Origin: Onthophagus taurus
Taxonomy: Eukaryota > Arthropoda > Insecta > Coleoptera > Scarabaeidae
DNA: 64,000 nucleotides
Direction: 5' to 3'
NCBI RefSeq assembly: GCF_036711975.1
Contig: NC_091975.1
Location: forward strand, 3,040,501 to 3,104,500
Position 1 is the stretch's first letter. Each line of letters begins with the position of its first letter. Made by a program: the position numbers and the translations under genes. Positions 51,444 to 60,110 of this stretch are shown one piece after another. The notes below the pieces were generated by a model. That model saw only the letters and a list, made by a program, of their open reading frames with translations, had not been told where the DNA came from and ran no database searches.

Positions 51444-54400
51444 CTAATCCTCTTCTTCATCCGTCGGCAAAAAAGCGTACTTATTTGATCCTACGAAATT
51501 TGGTGGCTCTGGTTCTTTCATTTTCGGCATTTCTTTCTCTCTACATAAAACATATTAAAAAAAAAAATGTTTAGCTATAAATTAGGAATTAAAAACACAA
51601 ATTTTACCTTCTTGTTTTTTCTTTAACAGGCTGTTGTGGTTTATCCCCTTTTTCTCCTACTCTATCCTCTAAAACAAAATAAAACACAAAGATCACCCCC
51701 ATTCCAAGATAACAACAAATTAGTCTGAATTGAGTTCTAACTCTTTTTTCTTATAAAATAAAAAAAAGAATTAGCTCGCGCATTGTACTAAAACAGCGAA
51801 CCACGGAAGCTTTCAACGCAATCAACATCAACACCTCTTATTTCTTAACAAGAAATTATTAAGAAATCCTCCTCGGCTCGAAGTAACTGCGCACATTTTC
51901 TGGTACTTCCGCCCCGTGTAATACGAGCGCCCTCCTAGAGCGTTATAATTGGTTTAATCTCAGACCTTCCCGGGGCTAGATAAATAGTAACCGAGTACTC
52001 TGTATGTAAGCCCCAAGCGCAAGATTGCCGTTATTTGGTGAGAGGTGAGTAAGAAAAAACTTACCACGACGAATTGGTGCCGAACGTTCGGGAGATTTCC
52101 GGCGGTTAGGAGACCGTCGTTTTCGCTCGGGTGTTGGTGAACGTCGTTTCCGCTCTGGTGTTGGTGAACGGCGTTTCCGCTCCGGTGTTGGGGAACGTCT
52201 ACGACGCAATACTGGTGATGATGATCTTCTGCGACGTTCTGGAGAGGTTGATTCTGGCTCTGGTGGCGAACGCCCTCTTTCGGGGGAGTACGATCGACGA
52301 TATTCTGGTGATGATCCTCCATCAGGGGAACGCCTTTGCAAAAATAGTAATAATGATATACAGGATGTGTCAAATGTCTGGAACATAGCCAATAACTTCG
52401 CGATTTGTGGTTTTAAAGAAAAATGTTTCAAATAAAAGATTCTTTATTAATTGTGTCGCATTTTTTGGCGATATTTGTTTGTTTACATTATTTCTTGTTT
52501 CAATGCGATCTCAACCAACATTGTTATTTTAAATGGGATGCATAATATGTTTTTTTTTTGCATATTTTGTAAGTAATTGACAGTTTAAACAAATATGGCG
52601 CGATTAAGCGAACGACAAAGAATCCAAATATTAATGTTGTATGAGTACGGAGATAGAAAACGCACTTAAAGTGTTCAATAATATTTATCTATGTATTCAG
52701 ATACAACTTTGATAACGAAAGTTGCACAGTTTTTGATGTTCTATCACTTACACCTAATAAAAGTTTATGTTGAAGGGAAAGTTTCTTTTGACTGCAGCGC
52801 CATCTTTATATTTGTACAATGAAAGATAATAATACTTAAGAACTGAAGTCATTTAAAAACTCTAGCAACAACTTCTTACAAGATCTCAACCCATTCCTGA
52901 AATACTTGAATCTCTTGGCCTAAGAACTTTTAAGTGAAACATCCTTAAACATCATTAATGTATACATGCAGGATATGTATACATTAAAAATACAGGTATA
53001 AGCCATACTATTAATATTATCTATTTAACACATCAGTATATTGTTAAATATAAATGTTAACACTCATAGATGGAATCCAACTCGGGTTATTCCCCAAGTT
53101 GCTCTATTCCATGTTGATAGATAAAGTTGGGGCATTCCCAGAGTTGTATATAGGATATATAAATCAAGGTGGTTCTAGTTTTAATATATTTTTACCTATC
53201 AGGTGATCTTTTATGATCAGGTGATAATCTTTTCCTATCTGGTGACCTCCTTTTATCTGGAGATCTTTTCCTTTCAGGTGTCCTCCTTTTTTCAACACTT
53301 CGCCTTCTATCGGGACTTCTCCTCCTATCAGGACTTCTTCGCCTTTCAGGTGTTCGCCTTCTTTCCGGAGTTCTCCTTCTATCGGGCGACCTCCTCCTCT
53401 CTGGAGACCTTTTCTTATCTGGAGATCTTCTTCTATCCGGGGATCTCCTCCTTTCTGGCGTTCTACGTCTATCGGGTGTTCTCCGTCTTTCTGGCGTTCT
53501 TCTCCTTTCTGGGGTTCTCCTCCTTTCAGGCGATCTCCTTCTATCTGGAGATCTTCTAGAGAATTTTTCTTCTCGCCTCCTTTCCGTACGATCTTCAGCA
53601 ACAACGTTTGTGCTTTCCTTGGCTAATCTTTCTTCAATTTGTCGCTCCCTAGCGCTCGTATCAACTGGTTTTGCGTTGCCGAAAATTGAAGCAGCTGGAA
53701 CTTGACTAACGGGAGGTTTTTGCTGTGGTGGTTCCTCTTGAGGTTGTTGGGTTGGTTCTTCTTGAAGCGGTATAGAACGCGGTAAGATTCTTAGTTTAGG
53801 ACGTGTTCTCATCTCTTCTTTAGGATCGTCTTTACTACCAGCCCCTCGATAGAAACCACCACCAGCAGCTCCAGCACCACCGCCACCGCTACCTCCATTT
53901 CTAGATTCATAACCTCTACGTTCAAATCGGCGTTCACCCCCTTCTCGATCTCTCTCAAATCTTCCTTTATCTCTATCTTCTCTGAAACCTCCACCTCCCC
54001 CTCCTCTTTCGCCGCCATCTCGCCAAGAGGAAGACGAAACATCTCTGTCTCTGTCTCTCTCTCCTCTATCTCTCATGGGTCTTTCCCCTCGTCTTTCGCC
54101 CTCAACTGGATCGCTTCGTGGACCAGACCTCCAATCGCCAGTAGGAATATCAGGTCTATCACTGTTTCTGTCCCTTCCCATGTCCATTCGACCGCCTCGT
54201 CTTCTTTCATTATCAGAACCGCTTGAAACATCTATTCTTATCCGTCGATTTTTTAATGTACAATCTGATATCGAGAGGGCTTTTATTAAACTTTCTCTAT
54301 CTGAGAATTCAACGTAACCATAACCTTTTAGGCGTGGTGTCTCAACGCCCGCCCTATCATCTTTTGGGATTCTCATATTAGAAATTTTTAAATTACCGAA

Positions 54401-55052
54401 AAAATTCGCTATTTCTAATTCATCAACATCATAAGGGAGGTTCATTAAATACGCTACATAGGGAGGATTTTGAGGTACTTTATCGCTGAAGTCTTCAAGA
54501 CCTCTCGCTGCTTTCGGGGCCGTTGGTAAGACAACATTAGGTTTTGCTCTACTAAGATCGTTGTTATCTTAAATTAAAAAAGACTTTTTTAATTTTAAAG
54601 ACTTAAATACATTTCGTATTAATTAATTAATAATTGTAAAATTCACTTACCGTAAGCATCTTCAACTTCATCAGCCCAATTCAATGTAGATTTTCTTATA
54701 GGTAAAGCAGGAGCACTGCCGGGTGTTTCTTGTAAGAAATCGTTAAGCGCAAGGGTAATTCCCTTCTTCTTGCCTTTTTTCCCTATAAAGGATGAGAATA
54801 AACAATTAAAATCTTAGGAAAGATAAAAGTATGTCGGCCACCACGCGGTTTTCTGAAGACCATATGCGAGGTCGATATTTTAACGGAAAATACGAGGTAT
54901 TGAAAACCGATTTGAAATAGCAAATGAAATGGGATTGAAGTTTAGCATATAGTGAATGGTTTTTAGGGTGGATCGATGGAAACTGAGTCTTGAAAATGGT
55001 TAAAAAAGGTTCACGTGACAAATTTGTGGTAGTACTAACCTGAAGAAGCCAT
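51444..55052 (-). CDS. eIF4B: Eukaryotic translation initiation factor 4B
   Basis: Six coding exons on the minus strand: 55040-55052, 54651-54782, 53196-54567, 52065-52333, 51608-51668 and 51444-51540. They encode 647 residues. eIF4B stimulates the eIF4A helicase during 43S recruitment in the cytoplasm. Seen: MASSGKKGKKKGITLALNDF, the WADE-type motif LNWADEVEDAYD, an RRM at about residues 82-160 (YVAYLMNLPYDVD and GYGYVEFSDRESLIKAL), and a long D/R/G-rich region. Then comes a run of about 18-20 hexapeptides of the type RRSPDR/RRTPER, continued after an intron by RRSPTPERK units. The conserved C-terminus is PNFVGSNKYAFLPTDEEED. The RS-like run is unusually long for eIF4B. Intron 3 (862 bp) carries a Tc1/mariner fragment. 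It is divergent from RpL15. Confidence 0.93.
52359..52800 (+). mobile_element. Tc1/mariner-like transposon fragment in eIF4B intron 3
   Basis: Begins TACAGGATGTGTCAAATGTC, a terminus typical of one group of insect Tc1/mariner elements, about 26 bp from the splice acceptor of the minus-strand gene. At 52594 a transposase start is seen, MARLSERQRIQILMLYEYGD followed by RKRT and a stop. The following frames keep weak similarity (LITKVAQF) to the helix-turn-helix region. No clear right terminus was found, so it is truncated. Confidence 0.65.
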
Positions 55053-55595: not shown

Positions 55596-56636
55596 ATGGG
55601 GGCCTACAAGTACATTCAAGAACTTTATCGAAAAAAACAAAGCGATGTCCTTAAGTTTTTACTCCGGATAAGAGTTTGGCAATACCGTCAATTAACAAAG
55701 TTGCACCGAGCTCCCAGACCATCTAGACCAGATAAAGCTAGGAGGTTAGGTTATAGAGCCAAACAAGGTAATTATTTAATGTTTATTTACTTGTTAAAGT
55801 TAATTAAGTCTTTTTTAGGTTACGTTATCTTCCGTATTCGCGTTCGTCGTGGTGGTCGTAAACGTCCAGTACCAAAAGGTGCTACTTACGGTAAACCTAA
55901 AAGTCATGGAGTTAACCAACTTAAACCTGTTAGGAATTTACAAGCAATTGCTGAAGTAAGTAATTATTTTTTAATACAAAATCAATAATATGAAAAAGTG
56001 AGGTTATGTTGATTTAAATTATGATGATTTATTTATAACACATTGAAACTAATGATTGTTTATCTTCCTTGGATGTCTGAACAACAGTTTAATAATACAT
56101 CTAGATTTTAATTTTTATTTATAATTATTTAAAATGATTTTTTTTTTAAGGAACGTGTTGGAAGACGATGTGGTGGTTTAAGAGTCTTAAACTCTTATTG
56201 GGTTGGTCAAGATGCATCTTATAAATATTATGAAGTTATCTTAGTTGATCCATCTCATAATGTAAGTAAAAGCAATTATTTTAAACGTTATAAGATATTA
56301 ATGATGATTGGGCATGCACCACTCTTAAGAGTTTTTGCTGAAATCTATCCCGTAATTTAATTCTGATCTTTATTAATTCAACTTAATTATGATTCGTGAT
56401 TTAAAAGATGTTTATTGTTATTTTCTATTTTTTTTTTGTAGGCCATTCGTCGGGACCCTAAAATCAATTGGATCGTAAATTCTGTACATAAACACAGAGA
56501 GCTCCGTGGCAAGACATCCGCTGGTAAATCTTCAAGAGGACTCGGAAAGGGTCATAGGTACTCTCAGACAAAGGGTGGTTCTCAAAGGGCCGCTTGGCTA
56601 AGAAGAAATTCGCTCCAATTACGTAGAAAACGATAA
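55596..56636 (+). CDS. RpL15: Ribosomal protein L15 (eL15)
   Basis: Four coding exons, 55596-55767, 55819-55955, 56151-56261 and 56442-56636, encode 204 residues, exactly the usual length. eL15 is a 60S subunit protein. Seen: [87 protein letters not shown], and the basic C-terminus ending in [17 protein letters not shown] is at 56662. Introns 2 and 3 each contain a candidate box C/D snoRNA, a common arrangement for ribosomal protein genes. The TOP-like first exon suggests growth-dependent translational control. Divergent from eIF4B. Certain. Confidence 0.98.
56007..56086 (+). ncRNA. SNORD14: U14-like box C/D snoRNA in RpL15 intron 2
   Basis: Box C ATGATGA at 56021-56027 and box D CTGA at 56077-56080, 49 nt apart. 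The 13 bases before box D, CTTCCTTGGATGT, are the U14 domain-B guide, complementary to the 18S rRNA segment ACATCCAAGGAAG. The fifth base upstream of box D pairs with the C that U14 directs for 2'-O-methylation (Cm462 in human 18S). TGTTG (56007) and CAACA (56082) can form an outer stem. U14 domain A, needed for 18S processing elsewhere, is not recognisable. It ends 64 bp before the next exon, typical of intronic snoRNAs. Confidence 0.85.
56292..56370 (+). ncRNA. Candidate box C/D snoRNA in RpL15 intron 3
   Basis: Box C ATGATGA at 56301-56307, possible D' CTGA at 56338-56341, and box D CTGA at 56363-56366. AAGA (56292) and TCTT (56367) form a short terminal stem. It ends about 71 bp before the exon, as expected. 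The stretches before D' and D (CTTAAGAGTTTTTG and CCCGTAATTTAATT) are possible guides. I could not match them to a known snoRNA, so the target is unknown. Confidence 0.6.
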
Positions 56637-58085: not shown

Positions 58086-59328
58086 ATGTTTGCTGCCAGA
58101 TTGATCGCCCCTGCTGCCGTCAGAAGCGCCGTAAGTTTCTTTTTAAAACCTTTCCATAAACAAAAATTAATTTTCACCGTTCTTATTATCTAACCAAGTC
58201 AAGTCCATTTCATAGTTTTAAAGGTTACTTCATTTTTTTTTGCACTCCTAGGCGATTACATAACATCGAAATGTAATCCTAATCTTGGAATTCTTTTTAA
58301 TTTTTGAAGTATTTTTTAATTCTTTTTTGTAATTGACGATTAATTTGATTTTGATTTAATTTTTTTCTAGCTGATCTCGAACACTAAACAATATTTGAGG
58401 CCGTTGAGCAGTGTGGTTGCCCAAAGTCAATCTTTAGTTCAGAGCCCAATTGTACAACAACACCAGACAAAACCAGCTTTGTTACCTGCGATACGCGGAT
58501 TCCAAACTTCACAAGTTAGCAGGGACATTGATTCTGCTGCTAAATTTATTGGTGCGGGTGCTGCTACCGTAGGAGTTGCCGGATCTGGTATGCTTTATTT
58601 CAAAGTAATATTTTCCTTCCTAATCCTTTTTCGCGTCATTTCTTTAGTGCGTAATGATGACATTTTTAATAAATCAATGAAATTTTTATGATTTCTTTAT
58701 CTTCCTTGGATGTCTGAGCACGCACAATTAATTTTAAAGTATTTTTTTATGAAAATATTAGGTATTGGTATTGGTCTTGTTTTTGGATGTTTAATAATTG
58801 GATATGCTAGAAACCCTTCCTTAAAACAACAATTATTCTCCTATGCTATCCTTGGTTTCGCCCTTTCCGAAGCGATGGGACTATTTTGTTTGATGATTGC
58901 CTTCCTTATGCTGTTTGCCCTTTAATCCTGAAGCTATTAAAAGTGAACTGATTTTTCCTTAAGGTTATTTAAAGACTGTATTGATACCTGTATATAAGAA
59001 CTAAGTAAATAAGGTACTGTAGTGATTTTTTATTAATTTCTAATTTATGTATTTTATTATAAATTATATTTTAAAATGGCGCATCTAATTCCTATGTTTC
59101 CCAACATCCTTTTAATATATTTAATTATTAACTCGGCTTGAGTTATTTATTATATATATTTTAGGTGCTGGTATTGGAACAGTGTTCGGCTCCTTAATCA
59201 TTGGTTATGCCAGGAATCCATCGTTAAAACAACAACTTTTCTCGTATGCCATCTTAGGTTTCGCCTTGTCTGAAGCCATGGGTCTGTTCTGTCTTATGAT
59301 GGCGTTCTTGCTGTTATTCGCTTTCTAA
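58086..59328 (+). CDS. ATPsynC: Mitochondrial ATP synthase F0 subunit c (ATP5MC)
   Basis: Coding exons 58086-58130, 58371-58587 and terminal exon 59165-59328 encode 141 residues. Subunit c forms the proton-translocating ring of F1F0 ATP synthase in the inner mitochondrial membrane. Seen: a mitochondrial presequence ([15 protein letters not shown]…), the cleavage region around [20 protein letters not shown], and the mature hairpin. Helix 1 has the glycine repeat GAGIGTVFG, the loop is ARNPSLKQQ, and helix 2 carries the proton-binding glutamate in FALSEAMG and ends LLLFAF. A second, intact, same-length version of the last exon lies at 58762-58925 and would give an alternative C-terminal 54 residues. 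A U14-like snoRNA sits in the intron after exon 2. AATAAA is at 59520. Confidence 0.96.
58646..58726 (+). ncRNA. SNORD14: U14-like box C/D snoRNA in ATP synthase c intron
   Basis: Box C ATGATGA at 58654-58660 and box D CTGA at 58714-58717. GTGCGT (58647) pairs with ACGCAC (58720) as a perfect terminal stem. The guide before box D is CTTCCTTGGATGT, identical to that of the RpL15 copy, with the shared longer stretch TTATCTTCCTTGGATGTCTG. It pairs with 18S ACATCCAAGGAAG. The rest of the RNA differs from the RpL15 copy, and domain A is not evident. It sits 35 bp before exon 3a, so splicing choice could affect its release. Confidence 0.88.
58762..58925 (+). CDS. ATPsynC: Alternative last exon 3a of ATP synthase subunit c
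   Basis: This 164-bp exon has the same length, splice phase and acceptor type (ATTAG|GT) as exon 3b at 59165, its own stop, and no disruption. It encodes the full helical hairpin with the proton-binding motif ALSEAMG and loop [10 protein letters not shown]. Compared with 3b, the glycine helix reads [14 protein letters not shown] instead of [14 protein letters not shown], and the end reads [10 protein letters not shown] instead of [10 protein letters not shown]. Six residues differ in 54, yet many codons differ at third positions, so the two exons are old and protein-constrained. Using 3a excludes 3b. No perfect AATAAA was seen between 58926 and 59150, though AATAAG occurs near 59008. Confidence 0.85.
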
Positions 59329-60110
59329 ATACGCTCACTGCCGGGGGCTTCGTCAATAACATTTATTATAATATACATAAAAATACCATAAGATCGAACA
59401 TCCGAGAATTACAAAAAAACCAACATCAGCATCGGTGATCACCATCTAGTAAATTCTTAATTTTAATAATGATAATTTTCTTTTTGTTTCTATCCTAACG
59501 TCTGCAGCAACAGAACGGAAATAAATCCTTTATTAATTGTTCTAAATTGGGCGTCGTCTTTATTATTTCTTTTTTTTTTTGTTGATTGGGTTCACAAAAC
59601 AGGGGGCGCGTGTCGAGGGGGCTTCGCGATTCCTTTTGTTTCCCCAATTTCTCAAAAAATCTGGTATCCAGTGACTTTTGGGTATTTTTTTCTTAGAAAG
59701 AGGTGCCGCATGTACTGTTTTACTTTAACTATGGAAGTCAACAATAAAAGAATGTTTCTGTTAAAATGAGATTTTTTTTTTAAACTACGTATCAATAAAG
59801 TTTTAGAAAATATTGTTTTTGATTTTTAAAATTTAATTCCACGTGAATTCTTTTTATTGTAAAGGTAAGTTAAATGAAATAGATGGTCTTATTATTCATA
59901 TACTTCATAAATATGTTATTTTGTAATAACTTCGGCCGATTTTTATACACATATCCAAGTTAAAAAGTTATTACTTCTTATAGTGCTAAGAGAGTCATTC
60001 AAAAATATAGACTATGAAGTATTTGATGTGCTTTAGTGAAGTCCAATATTCCATTCTTAACCCTTTGAAGGAATTTATGAAATAGAGGCTCAAAAAGTAA
60101 TTCTCAAGGA
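59329..60110. other. 3' UTR of ATP synthase c and intergenic DNA
   Basis: Poly(A) signal AATAAA at 59520 followed by a T-rich downstream tract. The rest is unremarkable. Confidence 0.5.

Follow-up and report, generated by a model that had tools for sequence, protein, structure and literature searches.

The window, a 64,000-nucleotide stretch of Onthophagus taurus contig NC_091975.1, contains on its plus strand a gene for the precursor of mitochondrial ATP synthase subunit c, whose coding exons span 58086-59328. Behind exons 1 and 2 lie two homologous, in-phase terminal exons, here called 3a and 3b, each with its own acceptor and stop codon and both placed behind the one donor at 58588, directly after exon 2, which is common to the two isoforms. 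Residues are numbered from the start of mature subunit c, taken from aligned PDB chains.

58086..58130, plus strand: coding portion of exon 1, for precursor residues 1-15; followed by donor GTAAGT at 58131
58371..58587, plus strand: exon 2; remaining presequence and mature c residues 1-21; donor GTATGC at 58588
58649..58721, plus strand: C/D-box snoRNA-like element, U14/SNORD14-like, in the intron upstream of 3a (by Rfam and boxes)
58762..58925, plus strand: exon 3a, the alternative last coding exon; encodes mature residues 22-75 (I23, L27, C31, I67, M71 and L75); ends in TAA
59165..59328, plus strand: exon 3b, the canonical last coding exon; encodes mature residues 22-75; ends in TAA
59520..59525, plus strand: AATAAA, the first such poly(A) signal after 3b (hexamer scan); another at 59743

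Joined to either 3a or 3b, exons 1 and 2 encode a precursor of 141 amino acids free of internal stops; the intron before 3b is 577 nt, and that before 3a would be 174 nt if used. The initial annotation had described the two exons as equal in length and phase and as ending in their own stops, and both are indeed 164 nt including the stop and in frame with exon 2. Its statement that they replace the whole hairpin except its first residues holds for the exchange but not for its extent, since exon 2 already encodes the first 21 mature residues, about half of helix 1.

When the 290.8-Mb assembly was searched, the 3b hairpin matched two places among the best candidates scored, which are 3a and 3b themselves, and exon 2 matched one. 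Because the assembly shows a single exon 2 and two hairpin exons, no other upstream partner was found for 3a. The same searches yielded no retrocopy recording a spliced subunit c message among the best candidates scored.

Splice sites, polyadenylation signals and neighbouring RNAs

The acceptor tract of 3a contains 11 pyrimidines in 19 positions, that of 3b 13 of 19 and that of exon 2 15 of 19. Three hand-placed acceptors in a neighbouring gene, which by eye we take to be RpL15-like, have 11, 13 and 16 pyrimidines; as the lowest of these equals the count for 3a, the 3a acceptor is not taken to be unusually weak. Third-position G+C is 0.31 in 3a, 0.50 in 3b, 0.35 in exon 2 and 0.60 in exon 1, values that we did not adopt as evidence of expression level.

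A scan for 11 poly(A) hexamers placed AATAAA, at 59520 and 59743, only after 3b, and found only variant hexamers between the two exons (ATTAAA 58936, AGTAAA 59004, TATAAA 59058, AATATA 59114). Because only variants lie there, a message using 3a may run through 3b to the distal site. Instead of being two last exons with poly(A) sites of their own, 3a and 3b may represent a single terminal exon with alternative 3' splice sites. Messages with 3a would then carry 3b as 3' untranslated sequence, either by sharing the distal poly(A) site or by splicing from a donor after the 3a stop, making 3a an alternative acceptor or cassette and not one of two last exons. The position of AATAAA argues for this arrangement, as do donor-like sites at 58964 and 59005, each of which a crude count rates at 6 of 8, level with the donor of exon 1 (6) and better than that of exon 2 (5); the four variant signals between 3a and 3b argue against it. 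We put its chances just short of even. It would alter the message and not the protein, and is compatible with the production of two precursors that we favour below.

The snoRNA-like element in the intron upstream of 3a has a C box (ATGATGA at 58654), a D box (CTGA at 58714) and an element complementary to 18S rRNA. Its Rfam scores, 27.9 bits for SNORD53/92 and 27.3 bits for SNORD14, are both below the gathering scores, and a DNA search of the assembly with 58649-58721 returned only the element itself. Between the end of the D box and the 3a acceptor lie 44 nt, and it is tempting to speculate that snoRNP assembly hinders use of that acceptor. A second C/D-box snoRNA-like element occupies an intron of the RpL15-like gene (about 56021-56080, plus strand); both elements share TTCCTTGGATGT ahead of the CTGA D box, and the complement ACATCCAAGGAA is present in an 18S rRNA gene of the same genome. 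The RpL15-like gene also contains a weak snoZ221/snoR21b match (56292-56370, plus strand, 32.3 bits with a gathering score of 44).

About 6 kb from the subunit c gene, the window carries a nuclear RNase P RNA (51709-52034, minus strand; 135.8 bits in Rfam); no second match was found in the assembly among the best 16 of 5446 candidates, those that were scored. It adjoins minus-strand exons, from about 51976 to 54568, of a gene that by eye we presume to be eIF4B-like. RNase P RNA situated among protein-gene exons is described as a trait of insects and crustaceans, with ATPsynC apparently its oldest insect host gene, eIF-4B another common host, and convergence discussed (PMC4287351). Because both host genes adjoin here, a local move of the RNA is worth considering, and it may have passed between the neighbouring subunit c and eIF4B-like hosts.

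Divergence and constraint of the two exons

Of the 165 nt compared (55 codons, counting the first base of the split codon, which is common to both), 44 differ between exons 3a and 3b, with 10, 3 and 31 differences at the first, second and third codon positions (chi-square p=5e-7). Differences fall in 33 of the 55 codons, 27 of them synonymous and 6 nonsynonymous, and 15 of 19 comparable fourfold sites have changed, which is close to saturation. The dN/dS check proposed by the initial annotation gave a dN of 0.10 and a dS of 1.5 by YN00 and a dN of 0.07 and a dS of 7.8 by maximum likelihood, dS being high but poorly measured (NG86 returned no value). The main BLASTN match between the exons spans 162 nt at 75% identity (E 2e-29; 58743-58904 versus 59146-59307), so that it takes in the greater part of the exon plus 19 nt of AT-rich acceptor tract; the further matches are one weak (30 nt, E 0.09), one of 10 nt and one self-overlap of the compared stretches. 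Just upstream of the exons 14 of 20 nt agree, and over 60 nt the ungapped identity is 42% upstream and 23% downstream, compared to 73% in the exons.

The substitutions that change the protein from the 3b to the 3a form are A23I, T27L, S31C, M67I, L71M and F75L, so that 48 of the 54 residues in the exchanged part are identical. A codon comparison thus agrees with the six differences, unchanged glutamate and unchanged loop previously noted. Both forms match Pfam ATP-synt_C (PF00137) well above the cut-off of 24 bits (3a 50.2 bits, E 3e-13; 3b 49.3 bits, E 5.7e-13), both keep the helix-1 glycine motif (G20, G22, G24, G26, G30), and the proton-carrying Glu58 of helix 2 and the ARNP loop do not vary among 3a, 3b and the aligned animal chains. 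Joined to the shared part, 3b matches brine-shrimp c (9b0x) at 74 of 75 residues, the sole exception being T27, which is S in the brine-shrimp chain and T in the mammalian chain, itself close to 3b overall. The species of 9b0x is Artemia franciscana (PMC12325954). Because 3b fits the brine-shrimp protein at all but residue 27, where the mammal has T, each of the six changes is assigned to the 3a branch. By these alignments 3b encodes the usual c-subunit of animals. Residues A23 and S31 are invariant across the five animal chains whose alignments are shown; residues 67, 71 and 75 vary also between the mammalian and brine-shrimp chains.

That every one of the six changes polarises to 3a, along with the lack of AATAAA between 3a and 3b, could be expected if 3a were a decaying duplicate, open by chance and unused. 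Neutral drift was simulated from 3b with no constraint and the window's base composition, with 3000 replicates for each distance. At 0.05 substitutions per site the frame stayed open with six or fewer changes in 45.7% of replicates; the share fell to 4.2% at 0.1 and 0.17% at 0.15, and was 0 of 3000 at each of 0.2, 0.3, 0.5, 0.75, 1.0 and 1.5. Silent sites saturated against six protein changes, a combination that drift failed to produce at 0.2 substitutions per site or more, make decay a very unlikely account of 3a. Because long neutral decay cannot yield such a pattern, 3a is apparently an old exon under purifying selection; by this simulation, prolonged decay is ruled out, leaving room only for constraint lost recently, over about the last 0.1-0.15 substitutions per site. 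The accumulation of all six residue changes in 3a and none in 3b would also fit a weaker constraint on 3a. The earlier claim that the pattern is one left by selection is upheld in that both exons have been kept coding (27 versus 6 codon differences, and the simulation). At the level of sequence, these comparisons establish two intact coding exons, their long coexistence and purifying selection.

A degenerate loop-region pattern was also run against other collections. In the genome contig collection it found two stretches, L003 and L004, both with uninterrupted c genes of mitochondrial type. Judged by their open frames, these resemble mitochondrial DNA of protists that was binned with bacteria, and they were set aside as uninformative on 3a. 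Their other frames we take, by eye, to be mitochondrial; both stretches are filed under bacterial metagenome assemblies, and the c gene of L004 has L at position 27. In the viral collection the loop pattern was found in no stretch, and a subunit c protein was confirmed in 0 of 161 pattern stretches.

Predicted consequences for the c-ring

Our preferred explanation, which we consider probable from the sequence, is that one gene with a shared donor and two competing acceptors gives rise to two precursors with the same presequence and different hairpins, 3a being an old, constrained variant. Splicing from 58588 would pick the acceptor before either 58762 or 59165, producing two rotor subunits with an identical presequence and different mature hairpins. 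Splicing presumably uses both exons, with 3a likely a minor or tissue- or stage-restricted form.

Helix 1 forms the inner circle of the c-ring (PMC4956034). We placed its residues on an ideal helix relative to the mean direction in which its small residues (17, 19, 20, 22, 23, 24, 26, 30 and 35) point, a direction that is itself weak (R 0.27); residues 23 and 27 deviate from it by no more than 22 degrees, residue 31 by 62 degrees. Because of these angles and the known inner position of helix 1, 23 and 27 are expected to face the lumen and 31 the neighbouring helix. The initial annotation's placement of A, T and S toward the ring interior is therefore retained for 23 and 27 by this geometry and abandoned for 31, which lies nearer the helix-helix interface. 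A23I and T27L probably add bulk on the lumen face of the inner helix, so that a ring of 3a subunits would have a bulkier, more hydrophobic inner-helix lumen face (A23I, T27L) and a changed helix-helix contact (S31C). With Glu58 and the loop kept, 3a would tune ring stability, the lumen lipid plug or coupling, and not proton binding. Altered ring packing in 3a, which the initial annotation predicted, is plausible on these grounds, but the motif glycines are intact and V16 and I34 of the canonical form also point to the lumen by this geometry.

The two isoforms might instead both be made and be interchangeable, with 3a a dose or regulatory route (through its 3' UTR, stability or stage-specific expression) and the residue changes nearly neutral. 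Glu58, the loop and the motif glycines are unaltered, and 67, 71 and 75 are positions at which mammalian and brine-shrimp chains themselves vary. Fungal chains likewise have I/I at the positions matching 23/27 (three distinct sequences; five PDB chain sequences are shown, three of the same yeast protein). Yet A23 and S31 do not vary in the five animal chains, and three helix-1 changes along one stripe would be unexpected if neutral. We therefore regard interchangeability as a possibility of some weight, without favouring it.

A further alternative is that 3a rings contain more than 8 subunits, so that splice choice would set the proton cost of ATP. The Polytomella c chain (6f36; 490 chains in 49 entries) has A, V and S at 23, 27 and 31. 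Rings are c10 in yeasts and Polytomella and c8 in mammals (PMC5747523), and the brine-shrimp ring is c8 (PMC12325954). The change of A23 to I matches the I/I of the fungal c10 chains, and T27 to L resembles it; helix-1 changes can shift ring size, as in Bacillus pseudofirmus, where A16G/A20G converts a c13 ring to c12 (PMC4453477), and the c isoforms of Podospora are reported as unequal in ATP yield (PMC4956034). Against this, the Bacillus small-residue motif positions correspond by hand alignment to G20-G26, which are unchanged in 3a; Polytomella forms c10 with A, V and S at the three positions; and canonical V16 and I34 already point to the lumen by the same ideal-helix geometry. A simple rule equating bulky residues at 23/27 with a c10 ring fails on Polytomella, whose c10 ring has A and V there. 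The Podospora authors state that ring size is not predictable from sequence, yet raise the idea for their own two c-subunits (PMC4956034). An altered ring size in 3a is thus only possible as judged from its residues, and rings of more than 8 subunits we hold to be very improbable. The broader proposal that splice choice switches between mature c-ring packings, possibly ring sizes, with tissue- or stage-specific splicing thereby setting the proton cost of ATP, is unlikely.

Relation to known ATP synthase isoforms

Ring size and packing set the proton cost per ATP and the leakiness of the ring, and mammals have one mature c-subunit (PMC4956034). A second, splice-made animal c form would, if true, be a natural experiment on rotor tuning in animals, as proposed for Podospora. 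Podospora anserina resembles the present case in having two distinct mature c-subunits in one organism, Atp9-5 and Atp9-7, that differ at presumed packing positions, and in that fungus ATP yield and expression sites differ between them (PMC4956034). However, these are encoded by separate nuclear genes, with mature parts 66% identical (PMC4956034), whereas here one gene and a splice choice would suffice. By analogy, Podospora is the nearest precedent for two mature c-subunits.

The mammalian ATP5G1-3 (ATP5MC1-3) genes likewise provide several routes to subunit c, but they are separate genes whose products are identical past the leader cleavage site (PMC4956034). The initial annotation had stated that vertebrate c genes differ only in presequence, and for mammals this is so (PMC4956034; a single PDB chain sequence is named C1 and C2). 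Trypanosoma brucei also has several c-subunits per cell, but from separate genes, whose processed products vary in their first 20% (PMC4956034). Splicing as a means of varying the rotor is seen in the heart and liver isoforms of the mammalian gamma subunit, another rotor subunit under regulated splicing; there, one extra C-terminal Asp is placed on the shaft (PMC4415626), whereas here the membrane ring hairpin would be exchanged. No account of splice exchange of the c hairpin, or of two c last exons, was found in searches of open-licence papers. What would be new here is the exchange of the c hairpin by splicing, two mature c-subunits being already known from Podospora and splicing of gamma from mammals.
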